A stretch of 64,000 nucleotides of DNA from Variovorax paradoxus (GTDB taxonomy: Bacteria; Pseudomonadota; Gammaproteobacteria; Burkholderiales; Burkholderiaceae_C): contig NZ_CP123990.1 of NCBI RefSeq assembly GCF_029919115.1, positions 3,038,001 to 3,102,000 on the forward strand. Reading direction: 5' to 3'. The position numbers and the translations under genes were made by a program. The notes beneath the pieces are model-generated. The model saw only the letters and a list, made by a program, of their open reading frames with translations. It was not told where the DNA came from and did no database searches. Shown piece by piece: positions 41,893 to 54,966 of the stretch (position 1 is its first letter; each line of letters starts with the position of its first letter).

Positions 41893-42273
41893 ATGAACGC
41901 CTCGAAGATCCTCTCCGCCGTCGCTGTTGCCCTCATGGCCGTTGCCGGTGCCGCCCACGCCGAAACCTATGAAGGCGTGCATCAACTGACCTCGGCCGCC
42001 AGCCGCGCCGAAGTCGCCAACCAGGCCGTGGTTGCCGCGCACAGCGCCAACCCCTATGCCACCGGCGCCAATGCAGGCCCGGCCCAAGTGTTCGTTTCGT
42101 CGACCAGCCGTGATGCAGTCCGTGCCGACGCCGTTGCAGCCGCCCGCAGCGCCGATCCGTACGCCGAAGGCGCTTCCGCCGGCGTGGCACCCATCGTGGC
42201 CAGCACGGTGGACCGCGCCACGGTGCGTGCCGCAGCCCGCGCCGCCGCTCGCGGCGACTCGCTGCCGCTGTAA
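41893..42273 (+). CDS. Small exported repeat protein, unknown function
   Basis: 126 residues. A signal peptide (MNASKILSAVAVALMAVAGAAHA) is followed by an internal repeat of about 35 residues: SRAEVANQAVVAAHSANPYATGANAGPAQVFVSST is echoed by SRDAVRADAVAAARSADPYAEG with ASAGVAPIVAST, then by a partial third copy DRATVRAAARAAARG. AAGGAAATC lies before the ATG. Composition is alanine-rich (helical segments) with NPYA/DPYA turns. A terminator follows at 42298, so it is a stand-alone gene. Small periplasmic proteins of this style are common in Burkholderiales; no function is known to me. Confidence 0.75.
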   Translation: MNASKILSAVAVALMAVAGAAHAETYEGVHQLTSAASRAEVANQAVVAAHSANPYATGANAGPAQVFVSSTSRDAVRADAVAAARSADPYAEGASAGVAPIVASTVDRATVRAAARAAARGDSLPL

Positions 42274-42297
42274 TCCTCGGCGAGCGCTCGCTCCAGA

Positions 42298-42330
42298 AGC
42301 CGGCCATGCGAAAGCATGGGCCGGCTTTTT
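42298..42330 (+). terminator. Rho-independent terminator after the small repeat-protein gene
   Basis: AGCCGGCCATGC (42298-42309) pairs with GCATGGGCCGGCT (42313-42325, one bulged G) around GAAA, followed by a T-rich run. Confidence 0.82.
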
Positions 42331-42427
42331 CTTTTCTGCCTTGGCGTACTTGGCCGTCTGATAAGCTGCCTGCGCTCCTCTCTTCCCTGACCGTTTCCTT
42401 CCACCTGTCCTTGCGAATGCATTGCGC

Positions 42428-43555
42428 ATGTCGTCCGAAGAAACCCTGCGCCGCTGGCGCCTGATCCTCGGCCGCTATGCGGCGCAACCCCTGTCGCAGA
42501 CGCAGTTCTCGGCGGGCGACTGGAAGCTCGACCAGGCCCTCGAATACCTCTACGGCCGCGAATACGAAGGCCGCGGCCTGGCCAGGCCGAGCGGCGGGCC
42601 GGGTTCGCTCGACCCGAGCCAGTTACGCGCCGTCGACTGGCTCAACCGCTCGCGAAGTCTCTTTCCCCAAGAGGTGTTCGAGCGCATGCAGACGCAGGCG
42701 ATCGACCGCTACCAGCTGACCGACCTGCTCTCCGACCCGGCGGTGCTGCGCTCGCTCGACGCCACGCCCGGCCTCGCCAAGGCGCTGCTCGGCATGCGCG
42801 GGCGGCTCTCGGGCCAGATGCGCGACGCGGTCCGCGAGGTAATCCAGAAAACCGTCGACGAGATCACGCGCAAGCTCAGGAACGACTTTGTCAACGCGCT
42901 CGTCGGGCGGCGCAACCGCATGCGGCGCTCGCACATCAAGAGCGCGCAGAACTTCGATGCGCGCGCCACCATCGCGGCCAACCTGAAGCACTACGACGTG
43001 GAGCGCAAGCAGCTCGTCATCGAGCATCCGCGCTTCAACGCGCGCGTGAAGCGCAACCTGCCCTGGGACGTGGTGCTTTGCGTCGACCAGAGCGGCTCGA
43101 TGATGGATTCGGTGATCTACAGCGCCGTTATTGCCGGCATCATGAGCTCGCTGCCCGCGGTGCGTGTGAAGCTGGTGGTGTTCGACACCAGCGTGGTCGA
43201 TCTCACGCACCTGGCGCACGATCCGGTCGAGGTGCTGCTCACGGTGCAGCTCGGCGGCGGCACCGACATCGGCCGTGCGGTGGCGTATTGCGAGTCGCTG
43301 GTGGGCAACCCGCAGCGCACCGTGTTCGCTCTCATCAGCGACTTCATGGAAGGCGCCGCGCCCGGGCCGCTCCTGGCCGCGGTGCAACGCATGGCGCAGG
43401 CGCGCGTCAAGCAGCTCGGGCTGGCCGCGCTCGACGAATCGGCCAACCCCATGTACGACCGCCAAATGGCGCAGCGCCTGGCCGACAAGGGCATGCATGT
43501 GGCTGCCCTCACGCCCACGCATTTCGCGCAGTGGCTCGCGGAAGTGATGAACTGA
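42428..43555 (+). CDS. VWA-domain protein, YehP-like
   Basis: 375 residues, almost exactly the length I recall for E. coli YehP. A helical N-terminal part (1-210) precedes a von Willebrand A domain with an intact metal site: DQSGS at 220-224, Thr279 and Asp280 in GGGTDIG, and Asp305 in LISDFME. Such proteins commonly partner MoxR ATPases, binding a substrate or adaptor through the metal site. It is the first gene of a six-gene operon; its stop overlaps the next start as TGATG. A TTG at 42422 is an alternative start. Confidence 0.87.
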   Translation: MSSEETLRRWRLILGRYAAQPLSQTQFSAGDWKLDQALEYLYGREYEGRGLARPSGGPGSLDPSQLRAVDWLNRSRSLFPQEVFERMQTQAIDRYQLTDLLSDPAVLRSLDATPGLAKALLGMRGRLSGQMRDAVREVIQKTVDEITRKLRNDFVNALVGRRNRMRRSHIKSAQNFDARATIAANLKHYDVERKQLVIEHPRFNARVKRNLPWDVVLCVDQSGSMMDSVIYSAVIAGIMSSLPAVRVKLVVFDTSVVDLTHLAHDPVEVLLTVQLGGGTDIGRAVAYCESLVGNPQRTVFALISDFMEGAAPGPLLAAVQRMAQARVKQLGLAALDESANPMYDRQMAQRLADKGMHVAALTPTHFAQWLAEVMN

Positions 43556-45624
43556 TGGCCTGGTACGACGGCTACCGCGCCCACGACGACGACACCCTGG
43601 CCACGCTCGCCAACCCCGGCCTGCTCCGGCGCGCCGCAAAGGATGTGGAGGCGGGCAAGGTCGCATGGGCGGAGCAGGGCGCCGAGGGAGGCGTGGTGGC
43701 GGCCGACGGCCAGCGCGTGCAACTCGATGCGCGTGGCCCGCAGCAGGCGCGCTGCGACTGTCCGGCTCCGGGCATCTGCAAGCACATACTCGGCGCGGCG
43801 CTGTGGCTGCGGGCGTTGGAGCCGGCGGCTTCGGGCATCGCAGCCGGAGCGCCCTCGCCCGAGCAGGAAGACAGACAGGCGCCGCCCTTTGCCGACCCGC
43901 TCGCGGAAATCCTCGCGCTCGATGCCGCGGCACTTTTCAAGGCCGCGGGTGCGGCGGCCGTGCGGCGTGCCGCGGCAGCTGCCAGCAGCGTCGTCGAATG
44001 GCGGGTGCAGGGCGGCACCCTCGTCGTGGACTTGCCCGAGCTCGGCGCCTCCTGTCGCTGGGTGGCGGGCGCGGGCTATACGGGCATGGTGTCCGAGGTA
44101 CCTGCCGCGGAGCGCAAGGCGGTCCACCTGATTGCCGTTGCCGCGCTGCGCAGCGCGCACGGGCAGCCCCTCGCATGGCCCGAGGGCGCGCGGCCCGCAC
44201 CGGTCGCAGACATCGCGCGCCTCGGCGAGCGGGAGCGCGCGTTCCTGCTGCAGGTCGAATCGATGCTGGAAGAACTGCTGACGGGCGGCCTCTCGCATGT
44301 GAGCGAGCTGACGTCGGCGCGCCTCCTGGCACTCAACATGTCCGCGCGCGGCGAGGGCTTGCCGCGCCTGGCGGCCTTGCTGCGAAACCTCGGCGGCACG
44401 GTCGACCTGCTGGTGCGGCGCGACCACCGCGCCGAGGAGCGCGACGCCTTCGCGCTCATGGCGCGCATCCATGCGCTGTGCGCGGCGCTCGCGCGGGCCG
44501 AGGGCGAGCTCGCCGTGGCATTGCGCGGCCGGCTCAAGCGCGACTTCGACGAATCGGCCGCCCTCGACCTGCTGCCGCTCGGTGCCCACTGGTGGCAGAC
44601 GCGCGGCGGCGCGCGGGGGCTCACCGTCGCGTTCTGGGACCTGGCCGGTGCGCGCGTGCTGCAGGCCTCGCTGGCCCGCCCCGACGGCAGCGACACGGCC
44701 TTCACTTGCAGCGGCGCATGGTCCGCGAACGCGTTGTGGTCCGGCGCGGGTGCCGCGCAAAGCGTGTGCGAAGCCGCCCTGCGCCTCGAGCAACCCCGCC
44801 TCGCCGAAGACGGCCGCCTGGCGGTCGGCGGCGCCACCCGTGCCCAGCCCCTGCCTGCGTGGGCGGCCGACGATCCGCGACTGAAGTCGATCGGCTGCGG
44901 CAACTGGTCCGAACTCGGCGAGCGCCTGCGCGGCGCCACCGGCCTTGCGGCCGAGCCTTTCGATGCGGTGCTGCTGCGGCCCGCGGACACGCGCCCTCCG
45001 GTGCTTGACGAAGCACAGCAGCGCCTCGACTGGCTGGTGCAGGACGACGAGGGCCAATGGCTGCGGCTTGGCATCCCCATCGGTCCGGAGCACCGGCAGC
45101 GCGTCGACAACCTCGACCGCCTCACCGCGCGCCGCGCGCCGGTGCATGCGGTGCTGGTGCGCATCGAGCGCGCCGCCGCCAGCACCGAACTCATGCCCAT
45201 CGCTGTGCTGAGCAGCAATGCGAAGAAGGCGCTGCAGGCGGTGTCGCTCGACTTTGCCGGCGAGGCCGCGCGCACCACGTCGCTGGCCAACCGCATCCTG
45301 CGCATGTTCGAGGCGCGGCAGCAACAACGGCAGGCGGCGCCCGTGGGTGCGCCCACGCTCGCGGCGCGCCTGCTCGCGCCCGTGACCGAGGTGGCCGAGA
45401 CGCAGGCCGCCACAGGGCGCATGGCATTGACCGTGGCGCAGCGGCAGCGCCTGCACGAGGCACTCGACCGCGCGAGCTCGGTCGGCCTGGAGGTGCTGTC
45501 GAGTGCGCTGCGCATGCACCTTGCCGCGCCGGCCGCGGTGCCGTTGCTGAAGCTGGGTTTTCTGTGCCAGTTGCTTGGCGAACTCGACGGCTTGCCGGAG
45601 CAAAGGAAAGCACAGCCGGCTTAG
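43555..45624 (+). CDS. SWIM zinc-finger protein, YehQ-like
   Basis: 689 residues. Near the N-terminus lies the SWIM motif CxCx5CxH as CDCPAPGICKH (Cys67, Cys69, Cys75, His77), preceded by the short strand-rich region typical of these fingers. The rest is Ala/Arg/Leu-rich, mostly helical, without a recognised catalytic motif. SWIM fingers bind DNA or proteins. Its position between a VWA protein and a DUF4132 protein matches the E. coli yeh locus, where YehQ is the SWIM member. Translation is probably coupled to the VWA gene by the one-base overlap. Confidence 0.83.
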   Translation: MAWYDGYRAHDDDTLATLANPGLLRRAAKDVEAGKVAWAEQGAEGGVVAADGQRVQLDARGPQQARCDCPAPGICKHILGAALWLRALEPAASGIAAGAPSPEQEDRQAPPFADPLAEILALDAAALFKAAGAAAVRRAAAAASSVVEWRVQGGTLVVDLPELGASCRWVAGAGYTGMVSEVPAAERKAVHLIAVAALRSAHGQPLAWPEGARPAPVADIARLGERERAFLLQVESMLEELLTGGLSHVSELTSARLLALNMSARGEGLPRLAALLRNLGGTVDLLVRRDHRAEERDAFALMARIHALCAALARAEGELAVALRGRLKRDFDESAALDLLPLGAHWWQTRGGARGLTVAFWDLAGARVLQASLARPDGSDTAFTCSGAWSANALWSGAGAAQSVCEAALRLEQPRLAEDGRLAVGGATRAQPLPAWAADDPRLKSIGCGNWSELGERLRGATGLAAEPFDAVLLRPADTRPPVLDEAQQRLDWLVQDDEGQWLRLGIPIGPEHRQRVDNLDRLTARRAPVHAVLVRIERAAASTELMPIAVLSSNAKKALQAVSLDFAGEAARTTSLANRILRMFEARQQQRQAAPVGAPTLAARLLAPVTEVAETQAATGRMALTVAQRQRLHEALDRASSVGLEVLSSALRMHLAAPAAVPLLKLGFLCQLLGELDGLPEQRKAQPA

Positions 45625-45718
45625 AACCTTTGGCTTCGGTTGCCTCTGCAGGCCGCGAGTTGGCCGAAGCGTCACGTCCAACTGCCAAAATCAGTGCCCA
45701 GGAGAACGAGGAGAACGC

Positions 45719-48700
45719 ATGGGATTTCTGGACAAGATCTTGGGCGCCGTCACGGGCGGCGCCGGCACCGCAGCCGCCAACGGCTTGACGCGCGAGCAGG
45801 CGCAGCTGTTGAAGCAGGCCTTCGAGCCGCTCGAAAAAGCAGGCAAGGAACTGCCCGACAAGGCGGCCGCGTTCCTGGTCGACGGCACGCAGGAAACCGT
45901 GCTGCTCGACCTGCAGGCGGCCAGGTCCTTCGAGCCCGGGCAACTGCTCGGAGCGCCCGGCCGCCTGCGCTGGGGTTACAGCAACTACCAGAACAAGCCG
46001 CTGGAGAAAATCGGCAACCAGAGCCTCGAGCAGCGCGGCCGCTTCTACGCCAGCGTGGATGCCGGTGCGCCTCCGCTCGATGTGCTGGTGCGGCTGGGCA
46101 AGGTGCTCGCGGCGGCCGACGGCGGACAGTCGCTCGAGCACCCCGGCGCGCCGGTGCCGGAGTGGCTTCAGTACCTCGTCAACGACGCGGTGTTCGCGAG
46201 CTTCAACAAGAGCAGCTCCAGCAATGCCGCCGAACGCGATCTCGCCAAGCACCGGCCCGCGTGGAACGTGCATCTCATTGCAGCCCTGCTTGCGCACGAA
46301 GGGCTCGATCCGCATATCGCCCTGCAAGAGGTCTTCGAGCGCAAGGGACTGGACAGCTGGTACCACGACCGGCTCGACGGCCTGGTCGAGGCCCCTGCGG
46401 TGGCCGACTACATGCGAAGCCAGCGCGACGCGACCGAGGCGCTGCCTGCGAAGCTGTCGGCCGCGGGCCGCGTTCTGCTGGCCAGGCGCATCGGCAAGGA
46501 CAAGGCGCTCTTGAACGACTTTGCGCCGCTGTTCGTGCGCCTGGCGATCGACGGCAGCAAGACGGTGCGCGCCGAGGCGACACCGCACCTCGAAGGCATT
46601 GCCGAGGCGCAGCGGCTCGAACTCCTGGGGCAGCTGCTGAAGGACGGCGACACCACCCAGCGCACGCAGGCCGCCGAGCTGCTTGCGCGCCTGCCGGGCG
46701 ACGCGGCGCGCGCGCTGCTTGCCACGGCCGCAGAAACCGAGACCAGCAAGGCCGTGCAGCAGGCCATCCGCTCGGCCATGTCGCGGCTCGACGCCGCGGG
46801 CGACGCGGGCGAGCTCGAATTGCCCGAGCCGCCGGCCTGGCAGCCCTTCGAGGACATTCCGCTCGGCGAAGAGGCGGTGCAACTGCTCATCGCCAACCGC
46901 ATCGAGCTGCTCGAGAAAAACCGCATCGCCGCCGAGGCCGAGATCGAGGAGAACAAGGCCTCCATGCAGACCTACAGGTACAAGTGGCGCCAGGACAACT
47001 ACGCCGCCCACAAGAAGCTCACCGACGAGGACATGCGCGTGGCCGTGCGCGTGCTCAACGGACAGGGCAGCAAGCACGACCAGAATCGCGTGAAGAACGG
47101 CCAACTGCACCAGGTGGTGGGCTTCGGCAATCGCCTGCAGTCGATGCCCGGGTTCGGTATGCCGCACCTGATCCGCTGGCTGGCCGTGTCGCGCCACTGG
47201 ACCAGCTTCTGGTTCGACGACGGCTTTCACAAGTGGCTCGGGCGCCAGCCCGTGGGCTCGGTCGACCTGCGCGCGCTGGCCGAGTTGCTCCAGCGCTCCG
47301 GCATGTCGATCGACGATGTGGCCCACACCGCGCTCTACCAGTACTGGAACCAGCCTACGGCGGTCGAGGTGTTGCCCGCCGACCGCGTGTGGCCCTTCTT
47401 CGCGGAGCACCCCGAGTACATCGACGAAGGCCTGGGCCTCATTGCGCCGCCAAAGCGCGAAGGCCGCCAGACCCAGCTCGACCTGAACGCCACGCTGCGC
47501 ACGCTGGCCGTCTTTCCGACCGTGCAGGCGCGCTGGCTGCCGCGGGTGATGGAACTGGCGCTCGGCGAAGGCAAGACGCACCGCGCAGCCGCTCAGAAGG
47601 CGCTGTCGATGCTGCCCGACATCGGCCGGCGCGTGGTCGAGTCGCTCGGCTCCACCAAGAGCGAGGTGCGCATCGAGGCCGCCAACTGGCTGGCCGAGCT
47701 CAAGTACGCCGATGCCGTGCCCGCCATCACCAAGGCGCTCGAGAAGGAAACCCGCGAGACCGTGCGCGCGGCCTATCTCACGGCGCTCGAAGCGCTGGGC
47801 GACGACATCTCCGCGCGGCTTGCGCCCGCCATTCTTCTGGCCGAAGCGAAGAAGGGCCTGAAGGCCAAGCCCCCTGCGGGCCTTGCGTGGTTCTCCCTCG
47901 ATGCACTGCCCGCCTGCAAATGGCTGGACGGCAGCGCGGTAGAACCCGAGATCGTGCGCTGGTGGGTGGTGCTCGCCTGCAAGCTCAAGGAGCCGGGCGG
48001 CAACGCGCTGCTCACGCGCTACCTCGGCCTGCTCGACGCAGCCAGCCGCCAGGCCGTCGGCAGCCTGGTGCTGCGCCAGTTCATTGCGCAGGACACGCGC
48101 CACCCCACGCTCGATGAAGGCATTGCGCATGCCAACGCTCATGCGCCGCAGCGCTACCAGGGCAACCAGCAGCGCTACCAGAACGCGAAGGCCGAGCACA
48201 AGCAGTACTACGAAGCCGACTTCCAGAAGACGCAGGATCAGGTCTTCGAAGAGTGCAAGCGCGAGAAGATGAGCGAATACCTCGGCAGCGCGATCGGCGA
48301 AAAAGGCATTCTTGCCCTGACGGCCCACACGCCGGGGCACGAGGTCGTCACGCTGCTGCAGCAGTACATGCGCGACCACTACCAGCGCCGCTCGCAGATC
48401 GAAGCCATGCTCGAAGGCGTGGCGCCGGGCAACGACCCAGTGGTGATCCAGCTGCTGCTGGGCATCTCGCGCCGCTACCGCACCGCCTCGGTCCAGGAGA
48501 AGGCGCGCGCGCTGGTGCAGCAGATTGCCGACCGCAACAGCTGGACGCAGGACCAACTGGCCGACCGCACCATTCCCACCGCGGGCCTGGACGACACCGG
48601 CAAGCTCGAACTCGCATACGGCGACCGCATCTTCACCATGGTGCTCGACGCCGCGATGAAGCCCGAGCTGCGCAACCCCGAGGGCAAGATCGTCAAGGCG

Positions 48701-49546
48701 CTGCCCGAGCCGCGCCAGAACGACGACCCCGCGCTCATCAAGGACGCGAAGGCCCAGTTCTCGACCAGCAAGAAAGAGCTCAAGCAGGTCATCGACCTGC
48801 AGACCGCGCGGCTGTTCGAGGCCATGTGCACGGGCCGTGTCTGGCCGCAGAGCGAGTGGCGCGAATACCTGCACCGGCACCCGATTGCCGGACGGCTGAT
48901 ACAGCGGCTCGTGTGGCTCGAGCTCGACGCGGAAGGCGCGGTGCGCGGCAGCTTCCGCCCCACCGAGGACGGCAGCCTGATCGACACGGAGGACGACGAG
49001 GTCGACCTTGCGGCCGACAGCCAACTGCGCCTGGGCCATGCCTCTCTGGTGGACGAGGCCACGGCCGCCGCGTGGAACAAGCACTTCAAGGACTACAAGC
49101 TGGTGCCGCTCTTCGCGCAGATGACGCGCAAGCCGCCGGCCGTGGCGTTCACCGACGGCAAGGGACAGCCGGTGAGCGAGATCAACGACCGGCTGGGCTG
49201 GATCAGCGACACCTTCACGCTGCGCGGCAGCTTTGCCAAGCTCGGCTACCAGCGCGCGCAGGCCGAGGACGGCGGCTTCTTCTACCAGTACACCAAGGAG
49301 TTCTCGTCGGCCGGCGTACGGGTGGCCATCGAGTTCTCGGGCAACACCCTGCCGGAGGAGAACGTGCCCGCGGCGCTCAAGACACTGGGCTTCGAGGACA
49401 TGAAGACCCGCGGCTACGGCGACCGTGCGCTGCCGCTGTCGAGCGTGCCGCCGGTGCTGCTGGCCGAGGCCTATGCCGACTACCTGGCCATTGCCCAGGC
49501 CTGCGCCGGGTTCGACGCGGGCTGGGAAAAGAAGATGCCGTGGTAA
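45719..49546 (+). CDS. DUF4132 protein with HEAT-like repeats, YehI-like
   Basis: 1275 residues. After a short N-terminal segment, long helical stretches contain HEAT-like repeats (for example VRIEAANWLAELKYADAVPAI near residues 650-670 and RAEATPHLEGIAEAQRLELL near 280-300). The C-terminal about 250 residues (KHFKDYKLVPLFAQM, LRGSFAKLGYQRAQ, VAIEFSGNTLPEENV) match the DUF4132 family to which E. coli YehI (MolR) belongs. I see no WGR domain. GAGGAGAACGC precedes the ATG. Its size and repeats suggest a scaffold, and the mechanism is not known. Confidence 0.82.
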   Translation: MGFLDKILGAVTGGAGTAAANGLTREQAQLLKQAFEPLEKAGKELPDKAAAFLVDGTQETVLLDLQAARSFEPGQLLGAPGRLRWGYSNYQNKPLEKIGNQSLEQRGRFYASVDAGAPPLDVLVRLGKVLAAADGGQSLEHPGAPVPEWLQYLVNDAVFASFNKSSSSNAAERDLAKHRPAWNVHLIAALLAHEGLDPHIALQEVFERKGLDSWYHDRLDGLVEAPAVADYMRSQRDATEALPAKLSAAGRVLLARRIGKDKALLNDFAPLFVRLAIDGSKTVRAEATPHLEGIAEAQRLELLGQLLKDGDTTQRTQAAELLARLPGDAARALLATAAETETSKAVQQAIRSAMSRLDAAGDAGELELPEPPAWQPFEDIPLGEEAVQLLIANRIELLEKNRIAAEAEIEENKASMQTYRYKWRQDNYAAHKKLTDEDMRVAVRVLNGQGSKHDQNRVKNGQLHQVVGFGNRLQSMPGFGMPHLIRWLAVSRHWTSFWFDDGFHKWLGRQPVGSVDLRALAELLQRSGMSIDDVAHTALYQYWNQPTAVEVLPADRVWPFFAEHPEYIDEGLGLIAPPKREGRQTQLDLNATLRTLAVFPTVQARWLPRVMELALGEGKTHRAAAQKALSMLPDIGRRVVESLGSTKSEVRIEAANWLAELKYADAVPAITKALEKETRETVRAAYLTALEALGDDISARLAPAILLAEAKKGLKAKPPAGLAWFSLDALPACKWLDGSAVEPEIVRWWVVLACKLKEPGGNALLTRYLGLLDAASRQAVGSLVLRQFIAQDTRHPTLDEGIAHANAHAPQRYQGNQQRYQNAKAEHKQYYEADFQKTQDQVFEECKREKMSEYLGSAIGEKGILALTAHTPGHEVVTLLQQYMRDHYQRRSQIEAMLEGVAPGNDPVVIQLLLGISRRYRTASVQEKARALVQQIADRNSWTQDQLADRTIPTAGLDDTGKLELAYGDRIFTMVLDAAMKPELRNPEGKIVKALPEPRQNDDPALIKDAKAQFSTSKKELKQVIDLQTARLFEAMCTGRVWPQSEWREYLHRHPIAGRLIQRLVWLELDAEGAVRGSFRPTEDGSLIDTEDDEVDLAADSQLRLGHASLVDEATAAAWNKHFKDYKLVPLFAQMTRKPPAVAFTDGKGQPVSEINDRLGWISDTFTLRGSFAKLGYQRAQAEDGGFFYQYTKEFSSAGVRVAIEFSGNTLPEENVPAALKTLGFEDMKTRGYGDRALPLSSVPPVLLAEAYADYLAIAQACAGFDAGWEKKMPW

Positions 49547-49589
49547 GCCCGCCGCGCCGACACACAGAAGAACCAGCAGCAACACCATC

Positions 49590-50711
49590 ATGAGCACCGG
49601 CACATCACCGTCTTCTTCCCCCGCGACCCAGGCCGTGCGCCTCGCCCCCGAGGCGCGCTATGCGGACGAGCTTGCGCGCCTGCATGCGGCCGACACCGAT
49701 GCGCGGCCCACCGGATGGAAGCTCTCGCCGCGCGCGGTGCGGCGCTTCATCCTCGGCGACGAGAAGCTGCAGGTGAGCCGCAAGTTCTACGGCGACGATC
49801 CGCTGGTGGACCGCGCCATCGTCACGCTCATGGGCCACCAGGGCCTGATGCTGGTGGGCGAGCCGGGCACCGCGAAGTCGCTGCTCTCGGAACTGCTCGC
49901 GGCCGCCATCAGCGGCGATTCGGGGCTCACCGTACAGGGCACGGCGGGCACCACGGAAGACCACATCAAGTACAGCTGGAATTACGCGCTGCTGCTGGCC
50001 GAGGGGCCGAGCCAGCGCGCGCTGGTGCCTTCTCCGCTCTACCAGGCCATGCGCGCGGGCAAGCTGGTGCGCTTCGAGGAAATCACGCGCTGCCCGCCCG
50101 AGATCCAGGACGTGCTGATTTCGTTGATGAGCGACAAGCAGCTCATGATTCCGGAGCTGGGCGACGATGCCCGGCTCTATGCACAGCGCGGCTTCAACAT
50201 CATTGCCACGGCCAACCTGCGCGACCGCGGCGTGCACGAGATGTCGTCCGCGCTCAAGCGCCGCTTCAACTTCGAAACGGTAAAGCCCATCCGCGACCAT
50301 TCGTTCGAGGTCGAGCTGGTGATGGCCCAGTTGAAGCGCGAACTCGACGGCGGCGGCGAATCGCCGGTCGAGGTGCCGCGCGACGTGGTGGCGCTGCTGG
50401 TCACCACCTTCCAGGAACTCCGCGCGGGCCAGACGCAGGACGGCACCGCCATCAAGGGTCTCGATGCCGTGATGTCCACCGCCGAGGCCGTGAACGTGGC
50501 TTATGCGGCGGCCCTGCAGGCGCGCCATTTCAACGGCGGCCAGCTCACAGCGCGCGAGATCGCAGGCCAGCTGCAAGGCGTGGTTCTGAAGGACAGCACC
50601 GACGATGTCAAGCGCGTGCGCCATTACTTCGACACGGTGGTGCGCGAACGCGGCAAGCGCGACGCGCAATGGAAGACCTTTCACGACGCGGCGCGCGCGC
50701 TGTGGCAGTAG
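49590..50711 (+). CDS. MoxR-family AAA+ ATPase, YehL-like
   Basis: 373 residues. Walker A is GEPGTAKS (90-97). The Walker B position reads LVRFEEI (159-165), with Glu in place of the usual Asp before the catalytic Glu. Sensor 1 appears as IIATANLRDRG and the arginine finger region as SSALKRRF. MoxR ATPases act as chaperones or remodellers together with VWA proteins, for example during cofactor or metal insertion, and the VWA protein here is encoded in the same operon. It starts 43 bases after the DUF4132 gene and overlaps the following gene. Confidence 0.88.
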   Translation: MSTGTSPSSSPATQAVRLAPEARYADELARLHAADTDARPTGWKLSPRAVRRFILGDEKLQVSRKFYGDDPLVDRAIVTLMGHQGLMLVGEPGTAKSLLSELLAAAISGDSGLTVQGTAGTTEDHIKYSWNYALLLAEGPSQRALVPSPLYQAMRAGKLVRFEEITRCPPEIQDVLISLMSDKQLMIPELGDDARLYAQRGFNIIATANLRDRGVHEMSSALKRRFNFETVKPIRDHSFEVELVMAQLKRELDGGGESPVEVPRDVVALLVTTFQELRAGQTQDGTAIKGLDAVMSTAEAVNVAYAAALQARHFNGGQLTAREIAGQLQGVVLKDSTDDVKRVRHYFDTVVRERGKRDAQWKTFHDAARALWQ

Positions 50712-53287
50712 CTGCGGAAGCCGGCAGCGTTCTGCCTGCGGCGCTGGAGGCCGCGCGCGGCCGGCTGTTCGGCGAGGATGGCGAGGGCCTGTTCTTCGTG
50801 CCCGTGAGGCACCACAGCCCGGCCTGCGCATTCGCATTGAGGGCGCTGCTGCGCGAGATCAGGCCGGCGGCTGTGCTGGTCGAAGGACCGGACGACCTGA
50901 ACGCCCTGCTGCCGCTGCTGCAGCACGCACGGACCACGGCTCCCGTTGCATGGCTGTGCCAGAGCACCCGGCAGGTGCCGGTCGACGACCCCGACTCGGA
51001 AGAGAAGACGCGCACGGAATCGCGCGCGTCGTTCTTTCCGTTTTGCGACTACAGCCCCGAGTGGATTGCCGTGCGCGAAGGCGCGGCGCTCGGCGCACGC
51101 CTGGGGCTGATCGATCTTCCCTGGAGCGACAAGGCCTGGCATCGCCGCGAAAGCGATCAGGGTGAGGGCGACCCGAGTGACGGCGATGCACGCGACGCAG
51201 CGCGCAGCCTGATGGAAGAGCGCCATTTCGCACACAGCCGCTACCTGAACGCCATGGCCGCCCAGCTCGGCTGCGTCGACCACCAGGAGCTGTGGGACCG
51301 GCTGTTCGAACTGCGCACGTCGGCCGCTCTCGGCGACTGGCGCGCCTTCTTCTCCGACGTGTTCAGCTGGTGCGCGATGGCGCGGCTCGACTACGAGCCC
51401 GAGGTGCTCGAGGCCGAGCTGAGCCTGCCGCGGGAGCGCCACATGGCGGCGCACATCCGCCGCTGGCGCAACGAGGTCGAGGGGCCGATCGTGGTCGTCA
51501 CCGGCGGCTTCCACACGCTCGAACTGGTCAACCGGTGGCAGAAGGCCAAGCCTTCGAAGGCGCCCGCCGGCAAGGACGCACCGGACAACGCATGGCTGAT
51601 CCGCTACAGCTTCGAGCGGCTCGACGCGCTCAACGGCTATGCCTCGGGCATGCCATCGCCCGGCTACTACCAGCAGGTGTGGGAGCGCCTTGAAGCCGGC
51701 GATGCCGACCCGTTTACCGCGGTGGCGCTCGACAGCCTCACCCGCTTTGCGCGCCAGACGCGCGCGCAGGACCATGCCGATGCGGTGTCCACCGCGCTCG
51801 TGCAGGCCGCCGCCGCGCAGGCCATGCGGCTTGCGGCGCTGCGCGGCAATGCCGGTCCCGGCCGGCAGGACCTGCTCGATGCGATCCGCTCCTGCTTCAT
51901 CAAGGGCGCCATCGACGAAGGCACACGCGGCTTTATCGCCGACCTGCGCAACTTCTTGAGCGGCACGCGCATCGGCGACGTGCCGCCTTCGGCAGGCTCG
52001 CCGCCGCTGATCGAGGATGCGCGCAGGCTCGCCCGCCAGGCCGGCGTGCGGCTGGACGACAGCACCGCGCGCGTGGCGCGGCTGGACCTTTATCGCAAGC
52101 CTTCGCACCGCGAGCGCAGCCGTTTCTTCCATGCCATGGCGTACCTCGACACGGGGCTGGGCACCTGGCTCGCGGGGCCGGATTTTCTTGGCAACAGCCG
52201 ATTGCACCTGCTGTTCGAAGAGTGGCGCGCCGCCTGGTCGCCGCTGGTGGAGGCCCGGCTCATCGAGCTGGCGGCCGAAGGCGCAAGCGTGGAGGCCGTC
52301 TGCATGGCCAAGCTGCGCAAGGAAGAGGCTGCGCTGTCCGACCAGGGCCGCGGGCGCAGCGCCAGTGCCGCCGTGGCGCTGTTGATGCGCGCCTGCCTGG
52401 TCGGTCTGCAGTCGCGCCTTCCCCAGCTGCTCTCGATGCTGTCCACGCACCTCGACGAAGATGCCTCGCTCGGCTCGGTGGTCGAGTGCGGGCACCGGCT
52501 CGTCACGCTCTGGCGTGCGCGGGAGCCGCTGGGCGTGCAGCAGCATCCGCAGCTGCGAAGCCTGCTGGAGCGGGTGTGGCCCGCGGCGCTGTTCCTGCTG
52601 CCCGATGTGGGCGGTTGCCCTGAAGAGGGCGAGGCGGGCGCGGTGAAGCAGCTGCTTTCGCTGCGCGAGCTCGGGCGCCTGCTGGCCTCGCTGCAAGCCG
52701 AACTGGAGGAAGCCGGCGACGGTGCCGTCGACCTCGACCTGCTGCGGACGCAGCTCGAACGATTCGCGACCGGTGCATCGGCCGCGCCCGCCGTGGCCGG
52801 CGCTGCTTCGGCCCTGCTGTACCTTGACGGGCACTGGGACGAGAACGCGCTCGACACCGTGGTGCGCCAGCGCTTCGGCGCGGGCGCAGAGCCGCGCGAA
52901 GCGGTGCGTTTTCTGAACGGGGTGATGGCCGCGGCGCCTGAACTGCTGCTGCGCCTGCCCGCGCTGCTCGAGGGCCTCGACGGCCTGGTGCAGGGTTGGG
53001 ACGCCGAAGCCTTCGTGGCGCATCTGCCCGATCTGCGGCAGGCCTTCACGCGCCTGAAGCCGCAAGAGACGTCGGACCTGGCCGGCCGCGTTGCCGCGCT
53101 GCACGGCATGGGCGAAGCAGAGGGCCAGGCGCTCTACCAGATGCACTACGAAACCACCGAACAAGACCTGCACGAAGGCGCACAGCTGCAGCTCGCGCTG
53201 GCCGAGTGCATGCGCCGCGACGGCCTTGCCGCGTGGCTGGCCGCCCCAGAGCACAAGAAGAACAACAACGTCGAAAGCGGGTCATGA
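50702..53287 (+). CDS. DUF5682-family protein, YehM-like
   Basis: About 861 residues, longer than the roughly 760 I recall for E. coli YehM. The N-terminus carries FFVPVRHHSPACAFALRALL (31-50) and VLVEGPDDLN (58-67), a His-rich loop and acidic motif reminiscent of the TraB/ChaN/EreA-type fold. GPIVVVTGGFHTLELVNRW lies further in, and the remainder is helical. The GTG at 50702 overlaps the MoxR stop by ten bases. An ATG at 50669 in the same frame is an alternative, and neither has a good ribosome binding site. The last codons overlap the next gene as ATGA. Activity is unknown. Confidence 0.8.
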   Translation: MAVAAEAGSVLPAALEAARGRLFGEDGEGLFFVPVRHHSPACAFALRALLREIRPAAVLVEGPDDLNALLPLLQHARTTAPVAWLCQSTRQVPVDDPDSEEKTRTESRASFFPFCDYSPEWIAVREGAALGARLGLIDLPWSDKAWHRRESDQGEGDPSDGDARDAARSLMEERHFAHSRYLNAMAAQLGCVDHQELWDRLFELRTSAALGDWRAFFSDVFSWCAMARLDYEPEVLEAELSLPRERHMAAHIRRWRNEVEGPIVVVTGGFHTLELVNRWQKAKPSKAPAGKDAPDNAWLIRYSFERLDALNGYASGMPSPGYYQQVWERLEAGDADPFTAVALDSLTRFARQTRAQDHADAVSTALVQAAAAQAMRLAALRGNAGPGRQDLLDAIRSCFIKGAIDEGTRGFIADLRNFLSGTRIGDVPPSAGSPPLIEDARRLARQAGVRLDDSTARVARLDLYRKPSHRERSRFFHAMAYLDTGLGTWLAGPDFLGNSRLHLLFEEWRAAWSPLVEARLIELAAEGASVEAVCMAKLRKEEAALSDQGRGRSASAAVALLMRACLVGLQSRLPQLLSMLSTHLDEDASLGSVVECGHRLVTLWRAREPLGVQQHPQLRSLLERVWPAALFLLPDVGGCPEEGEAGAVKQLLSLRELGRLLASLQAELEEAGDGAVDLDLLRTQLERFATGASAAPAVAGAASALLYLDGHWDENALDTVVRQRFGAGAEPREAVRFLNGVMAAAPELLLRLPALLEGLDGLVQGWDAEAFVAHLPDLRQAFTRLKPQETSDLAGRVAALHGMGEAEGQALYQMHYETTEQDLHEGAQLQLALAECMRRDGLAAWLAAPEHKKNNNVESGS

Positions 53288-54966
53288 CCATCGATCTCCA
53301 GACGCTCAAGTGCGGCGAATGCGGCAGCAGCGCGCTCAAGCGCACCGGCCTGAACCAGTACGCCTGCCAGCATTGCGGCTCGGTAACGCTGGTGGAGGAC
53401 AACGTTTCCGACCGGCTCGACCGTGTGCTCGAACAGGTCAAGAACGAGGCCGGGCGCCGGCTCGCGGCCGACGAGGCGCAGCGGCGCAAGGCCATGCTGC
53501 GCAATGCCGGCATCGGCATGGCCGTCGTGGCGGTTGTGCTGCTGGTGAGCGCGGTGATCGGAATGCTGTCCGGCCCACGGCCATCGACAAACGCCCCCGC
53601 GGCGCGGCCCGTGGTTGCGCCGCCTGTCGACCGGACCATTCCGACGGAAGGCCTGAAGCTCGGCGAGCCGCGTCAGGTGCTGGTGGGCGGCGGCAGCTCG
53701 GCCGTGCCCAAGCTGCTGGTAGTGGCGCGCAACGAAACCGGCAAGCCGCTCGCACGCGCCGGCATCAAGGCCGTGTACTACGACGGCGACAACCGCGTAG
53801 AAGAGCGCACCGAGACGCTGCCGATCTCCGTGCTGGAGCCGGGCGAGACTGCGCCAGTCCTGATCGACATGCCGAATGGCAAGAACGTCACGCGCCAGGA
53901 ATTGAGCGTGCAGAAGCTGGCAGAACCGTACAAGGCCGCGCAGGGCGAGCGCATGACCTTTGCGCGCGTGCGGCTGGTGCAGCAGGCCGATCGGGTGCGG
54001 CTGGTGGGCCGCATCGTCAACGCACGCAAGGATGCGGCCATGCTCTCCGGCATCGACGTGCTGGCCACGCTGTACGACGATGCGGGGCAGGTAATCGGCT
54101 TGGGCCGCGGCTATGCGCAAGCCAACGAGCTCAAGCCCGGCGCGCCGACCTCGGTGGACCTGAGCATTGCCCGCTTCGGCCGTGCGGCGGCCATTGCGGC
54201 CTGGGACTACCGCATCGGCTACAACACCGTCGATGCCGGCGGCTCGCGCACCGCGGTGCTCAACGCCGAGCGGGTGGTGCGCGCCGTGGGGGCGCCGGAA
54301 AGCTTCAACCCCGACCTGCGCCTGAGCACCGAAGACCTGCTGGCCGAGGACAGCGAGCGCTTCGATGCGAATCAGCTGGAGTTGCTGCCGCTGGTGGCGG
54401 GGCGCAGCAACATCCAGCGGCCGCTGTTCCTGACCGAGCTGGTGAACCGAAGCGCCGACGCGGTGGTGGTGGCGCCGGGCGGCGTGATCTCGCGCTTCGG
54501 CGGCAGCAAGGCCGACGGCACCACCGCCATTGCGGGGCTGGCCTACCTGTACCCGGGCGATCGGTTTCCCATAGTGCTGGAGCCGAACGCCGTGGAGCGC
54601 ATCACCCAGACCCGTGTCGAATGGAAGCCGATGCGCCGTGCCGCGCTGCCGGGCCCGCGCGCACCGCTGGAGGTGCGGGTCACGGGCACCAAGGCCGAGA
54701 CCGGCAGCGTGCTGCTCAACTTCAGCCAGCGCTTCACTTACAAGAGCGTGGAGGTCACGGGCACGGTGAAGAACCCGGGCAACAACGTGGTCGGCAAGGT
54801 GCGCCTGTGGGTGAGCCTGCGCGACCGCAACGGGCAGCTCACCGGCTTCAAGCAGGTGCAGAACCTGCCGGCCATTGCGCCGGGCGAGAGCGTGCCGTTC
54901 CAGGTAGACGTGGAGCAGAACGGGCGGGATTTTGCGAGCGTTTCGACGCTATACCAAACCGAATAG
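53284..54966 (+). CDS. Zinc-ribbon membrane-anchored protein of the yeh-type operon
   Basis: 560 residues. An N-terminal zinc ribbon has Cys10/Cys13 and Cys28/Cys31 (CGEC, CQHC), followed by a charged helix, one membrane segment (about 74-96) and a Pro-rich linker. The large C-terminal part contains beta-sandwich-like repeats with phrases such as [20 protein letters not shown] and [18 protein letters not shown], recalling FxLYD-type domains. The ribbon would face the cytoplasm and the beta domains the periplasm. It overlaps the DUF5682 gene as ATGA and closes the operon. I do not recall this partner in the E. coli locus, so it may be a lineage-specific membrane link. Confidence 0.78.

Follow-up and report, generated by a model that had tools for sequence, protein, structure and literature searches.

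A run of six genes at positions 42428-54966 on the plus strand of a 64,000-nucleotide stretch of Variovorax paradoxus DNA (NZ_CP123990.1; hereafter the window) raises two questions: whether its products make up one six-part system, as the initial annotation proposed, or a smaller set that adjoins an unrelated gene, and what such a set might do. The first five genes encode a CoxE-type VWA protein homologous to Escherichia coli YehP (42428-43555; 375 amino acids (aa); Pfam VWA_CoxE, E = 3.6e-51), a YehQ-like SWIM zinc-finger protein (43555-45624; 689 aa; Pfam SWIM, E = 0.0011), a DUF4132 protein with HEAT-like repeats homologous to YehI (45719-49546; 1275 aa; Pfam DUF4132, E = 1.4e-33, and HEAT_2, E = 1.5e-12), a MoxR AAA+ ATPase of the YehL type (49590-50711; 373 aa; Pfam AAA_5, E = 1.2e-36) and a DUF5682 protein homologous to YehM (50702-53287; 861 aa; Pfam DUF5682, E = 1.9e-100). 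The sixth encodes a zinc-ribbon membrane protein. We assign a probability of roughly 0.5 to the joint reading that a mobile five-gene module has been inserted before an unrelated membrane-protein gene and that its MoxR-VWA machine remodels or gates a DUF5682 hydrolase. This reading draws on the anatomy of the locus, the homology and conserved motifs of its proteins, their conserved linkage, fusions of DUF5682 to VWA, the predicted fold of DUF5682 and the distinct history of the sixth gene.

Open reading frame (ORF) borders and domain scans bore out six genes on one strand, of the families named by the initial annotation, and third-position GC of 0.82-0.90 in the four ORFs that passed the scan filter fits coding. 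The genes had been described as mostly overlapping by 1-10 bases. This holds for three of the five junctions, namely VWA/SWIM (1 base), MoxR/DUF5682 (10 bases from the GTG start of the DUF5682 gene, or 43 from a possible alternative ATG at 50669) and DUF5682/zinc-ribbon (4 bases, the start overlapping the stop as ATGA), but not for the other two, where gaps of 94 and 43 bases separate SWIM from DUF4132 and DUF4132 from MoxR.

The VWA protein has a metal-ion-dependent adhesion site (MIDAS) set consisting of DxSxS at residue 220, GGGTD at 276 and D at 305. The SWIM protein, whose Pfam score of 18.9 bits is just below the curated cut-off of 19.6, has CxC(5)CxH at residue 67, and the MoxR protein has intact Walker A (GEPGTAKS) and Walker B (RFEE) motifs. 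In blastp against E. coli MG1655, identity was 44% between the VWA protein and YehP, 53% over 360 aa between MoxR and YehL, 28% between DUF5682 and YehM, 29% over only 237 aa between DUF4132 and YehI (E = 3e-28) and 32% across the 65-aa SWIM region between the SWIM protein and YehQ (E = 3e-7). The zinc-ribbon protein found no MG1655 counterpart, with nothing better than E = 0.6. The proposed relation of the five genes to YehI, YehL, YehM, YehP and YehQ is thus supported by both Pfam families and blastp. The five homologues are contiguous on one strand, and the window holds a complete member of a known, functionally unexplained yeh-type five-gene module.

The window nevertheless differs from the MG1655 locus, in which yehI, yehK, yehL, yehM, yehP and yehQ follow one another on one strand: its order, VWA-SWIM-DUF4132-MoxR-DUF5682, is rotated relative to that of E. 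coli, and the 43-base gap between DUF4132 and MoxR has no room for a yehK-sized gene. Like RavA-ViaA, the module pairs a MoxR ATPase with a VWA protein encoded in the same operon; unlike it, the module has three further partners, and its identity amounts to only 24% over 110 aa with RavA and 26% over 156 aa with ViaA. This distance from RavA points to the YehL type, which is named among the types of MoxR ATPase in the literature (PMC3893208). The protein can be classed on sequence as a YehL-subfamily member, being nearer to YehL than to RavA, the one other MoxR type compared, with intact Walker motifs and a VWA gene nearby.

To describe the module in other genomes, we took the 80 best of 551 matches to a scan with a window-based DUF5682 alignment, in which the E. 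coli branch is under-sampled, and scored the five families with profiles grown from the window and E. coli proteins. All five were present in 69 of these 80 loci, which come from six phyla (Pseudomonadota, Actinomycetota, Cyanobacteriota, Planctomycetota, Verrucomicrobiota and Bacillota). Of the 11 incomplete loci, seven (L069, L082, L091, L103, L108, L113 and L116) run into a contig end at the place expected for the missing gene; in four (L077, L089, L096 and L105) a contig end accounts for none, or only some, of the missing genes. Lone DUF5682 genes, with none of the other four families close by, were seen in Blastocatellia (L077:9923-12373, the single Acidobacteriota locus) and Planctomycetaceae (L105:5604-8177). 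At least 95% of the 79-83 sequences compared retain the Walker motifs of MoxR, the MIDAS set of VWA and the CxC/CxH motif of SWIM (L027, L032 and L033 left out of the count). In L032, the copy of Variovorax genome G007, the DUF5682 and VWA frames are both broken (L032:12306-15830), by decay or assembly error. DUF5682 is rare on plasmids (36 of 72,556 records, some chromosome-sized, seven with at least 80% of the protein). Three of seven plasmid regions examined, from Deinococcus, Rhizobium and Hymenobacter, have a DUF5691 gene in the place of DUF4132; these variant modules lie on plasmid records at L126:4774-12820, L131:5116-12442 and L132:4294-12533, and the Hymenobacter region has no annotated SWIM gene.

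The E. coli gene order was found in 50 of the 69 five-family loci, or 51 when L078, sorted apart by an open-frame start, is included; DUF4132 comes last in nine others and is last and reversed in two. The window order is shared by seven loci: two from Variovorax and one each from Rhodanobacter, a Rhodanobacteraceae bacterium, Giesbergeria, Trinickia and Rudaea. In a quick, midpoint-rooted DUF5682 tree of 84 rows, many of which differ in composition (the window and E. coli were included; L027, L032, L033 and loci whose DUF5682 match spans 650 or fewer profile positions were omitted), these seven loci and the window formed one group with support 100, spanning three families. A separate deep group joined E. 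coli YehM to four further copies from Variovorax (support 100, stem 2.28), and the window fell with the remaining 79 rows. Since both deep groups contain Variovorax copies, the genus holds two distantly related versions.

The sixth gene (53284-54966; 560 aa) has a different history. Its product has CxxC pairs at C10/C13 and C28/C31 and a hydrophobic stretch at residues 75-97, its one transmembrane segment; no Pfam family scored above cut-off, and the NCBIfam FxLYD model (NF038353, E = 4e-22) matched in three stretches, which the initial annotation did not describe. It had been suggested that there is a six-part machine in which this protein anchors the other five, cytosolic ones at the inner membrane. 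The ATGA overlap on the same strand is in keeping with this idea, as is the same adjacency in a second Variovorax genome, G004, where the zinc-ribbon frame has no stop and shows 96% identity from end to end; because of these features, co-translation of the two genes is likely in these strains. In the genus at large, however, the gene is distributed independently of the module. It was matched in 15 of 25 Variovorax genomes (in G011, G018 and G020 over residues 1-357 only, at 54-56%), including all eight with DUF5682 and seven without a DUF5682 match, three of the latter being less than 90% complete. It adjoins DUF5682 in only two of the eight genomes that have both, the window's own (G000) and G004; the two genes lie on different contigs in G007, G009, G016 and G017, about 104 kb apart in G020 and 943 kb apart in G014. 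In the family survey, which scored only the top 3-5 candidates per genome, four of 250 genomes had the gene (three were of this genus and one gave a weak match), and it adjoined DUF5682 in one of the 28 DUF5682-bearing genomes, again G000. Among the 80 related loci, its profile gave no match at E <= 1e-5 except a 5′ stub in L047, and more distant homologues (L039-L043 and L045; 52-61%) have other neighbours. Conserved co-occurrence of this gene with the module, named beforehand as the test of a six-part system, was thus not seen in the neighbourhood survey.

Comparison of sites with and without the five genes located the borders of the module. Five genomes (L034-L038) lack the cassette at the window's site. 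There, a 126-aa gene (41893-42273 in the window) is followed by an intervening stretch, then by the zinc-ribbon gene and a luciferase-like gene (54999 in the window); the intervening stretch matches DUF6891 and VanW-like genes of G004 at 77-79%, and L035 has an extra, weakly SMI1-like gene. The matches of L036 and L035 to the window stop at 42282 and 42330, respectively, and restart at exactly 53283. These positions define a cassette of about 10.9 kb that ends at the zinc-ribbon start codon (right border, 53283-53284); its left border lies at 42331-42353, the latter being where sister cassettes begin to match. Just before the left border, behind the 126-aa gene, an inverted repeat and T-run at 42300-42336 was seen by eye and is absent from the terminator scan list. 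The sister cassettes, in V. paradoxus NBRC 15149 (L046) and V. beijingensis (L047), are 94% identical in DNA to that of the window, lie at another site with none of the window's flanks, and retain of the zinc-ribbon gene no more than its first ~25 and ~63 bases, respectively, before other DNA follows. They share ~0.3 kb of upstream DNA and may therefore stem from one transfer. Read most simply, these sequences would mean that the cassette left an arrangement like that of the window without taking the zinc-ribbon gene along. A phage-type integrase gene lies on the minus strand just upstream of the moved cassette of NBRC 15149 (L046:175-1047). In G004, the cassette itself contains, between DUF4132 and MoxR, the DUF6891 and VanW-like genes that in relatives belong to the insertion site (L033:7330-9365), and its DUF5682 changes frame near residue 150.

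These results largely refute the six-part machine, which we regard as very improbable. The zinc-ribbon gene is missing from related operons, with adjacency in 2/8 genomes of the genus, 1/28 of the family and none of the 80 loci apart from the two stubs, and the membrane tether is left unsupported. We rejected it as a sixth component in view of its independent distribution, the cassette border at its start codon and its reduction to stubs in the sister cassettes; it is a local neighbour with a separate history. Nor did another hidden sixth component emerge: among 681 flanking ORFs of at least 110 aa from 85 loci, the largest clusters spanned only four loci and, on inspection by eye, resembled common families such as a transporter and a LysR-type regulator, and three-locus clusters were mostly same-genus synteny.

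What, then, might the five proteins do? Structure models and fold comparison gave the N-terminal domain of DUF5682, within the first ~335 residues, an EreA/ChaN/TraB-type fold and made the C-terminal part helical. The alignment of 43 sequences (40 of the 80 loci with L028, L030 and the window; L058 was dropped for a stop codon) has invariant H37, H38, E61 and H271 in window numbering. Matches of sequence profiles to these 43 members were weak (ChaN in five, best E = 0.033; TraB in two, best E = 0.071). The TraB/ChaN-like character put forward in the initial annotation is accordingly upheld at the level of the modelled fold: DUF5682 shares the predicted fold of the EreA/ChaN/TraB (Tiki) superfamily, and the conserved His/Glu/His would mark the active site of a putative hydrolase of this type. 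Unlike these relatives, with which sequence similarity is near nil, DUF5682 has the long helical C-terminal part and is joined to VWA by operon or fusion. DUF5682 and VWA are fused in one open frame in some Actinobacteria, namely in Nocardioides albus (L067:9848-13573; residues 45-839 and 875-1241), and likewise in a Micrococcales metagenome-assembled genome (L116) and in a Streptomyces atratus plasmid gene (L130:8944-12711). VWA is a likely partner of DUF5682, and the fold and the fusions are useful new leads.

The anatomy, linkage, fusions and predicted fold together suggest that the most likely task of the MoxR-VWA machine is to mature or gate a DUF5682 hydrolase. A ring of the YehL-type ATPase would act with the YehP-type VWA protein as an ATP-driven remodelling pair, with DUF5682, the predicted hydrolase with its helical tail, as the client or gated output. 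The VWA protein would hold DUF5682 and the ATPase would switch or load it, and the SWIM and HEAT-like DUF4132 proteins could serve as recognition and scaffold parts. What we infer is that such a complex forms and that DUF5682 acts as a hydrolase, as well as the sequence in which the parts act and any substrate. Only tentatively do we propose the more specific version, in which DUF5682/YehM is an AAA+-gated hydrolase that is bound by VWA and switched on or metal-loaded by its dedicated MoxR, as part of a module present in at least six phyla, with DUF4132 and DUF5691 as exchangeable scaffolds. To our knowledge, no MoxR system gates an EreA/ChaN/TraB-type hydrolase. Depletion of the DNA-damage repressor DdrO in Deinococcus radiodurans upregulates an operon that includes a DUF4132 protein (PMC8533742); by analogy, through DUF4132 alone, this operon indirectly hints that the module may have a role in stress.

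Two other functions have to be weighed against a gated DUF5682 hydrolase. The initial annotation had likened the set to an assembly or conflict machine. If the module is a conflict system, against phages or otherwise, DUF5682 would be its effector and MoxR-VWA the threshold switch that controls it. The sporadic occurrence of DUF5682 (8/25 genomes of the genus and 0/16 other genomes of the order; 28/250 of the family and 12/299 of the phylum, in surveys that scored only the top 3-5 candidates per genome) is what such a system might display, as are the two sister cassettes (94% identical, at a different site), of which that of NBRC 15149 lies near the integrase gene, and an Iodobacter plasmid copy (L128:1330-18734) that adjoins type I restriction-modification genes. 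At odds with this, yehLMPQ is near-core in E. coli, with at least 80% of the query held by 5162 of 5426 genomes. Such a distribution is unlike that of most defence systems. Only 1 of 50,697 phage records matched, and a search of viral contigs confirmed no relatives. The same five components recur in 69 of the 80 best loci without effector swapping, and the best PADLOC 2.0 (2023) match among the six proteins had E = 0.0011 (SWIM against PDC-S62), with no system model matched. MoxR-vWA ternary conflict systems do exist (Kaur et al. 2020, PMC7159879) and likewise join a MoxR-vWA pair to further components, but these components in the window are SWIM, DUF4132 and DUF5682 rather than the four third components given in that paper. 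None of VMAP, iSTAND, FtsH and beta-propeller came up in a Pfam scan of the six proteins (E <= 0.1), a scan that did not look for VMAP and iSTAND models by name; bpMoxR fell below its cut-off (22.1 against 27 bits). On balance, we consider a conflict function unlikely.

We hold in similarly low regard the view that the module is a metal-centre maturation chaperone like CoxD/CoxE or NorQ/NorD, whose client would be a metalloenzyme encoded elsewhere. The VWA protein does belong to the CoxE family, and the yeh region contains molR. MoxR proteins are described as necessary for methanol dehydrogenase, among other enzymes (PMC3893208), and a DUF4132 protein and MolR have been tied tentatively to molybdenum metabolism (PMC8533742). 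Against this view, no metalloenzyme or other family recurs in the 681 flanking ORFs, and DUF5682 itself is the constant, VWA-fused partner.

We found no paper in the openly licensed literature that assigns a function to the module or to the E. coli locus. The five-gene kind is already known; the new leads are the predicted fold of DUF5682 and its fusion to VWA. The module matters in that yehLMPQ is almost universal in E. coli. Leaving the sixth gene out of the hypothesis spares work on a membrane tether, and with a predicted active site, a likely VWA partner and five parts that are conserved as a set across phyla, the module is open to direct testing in a laboratory strain.
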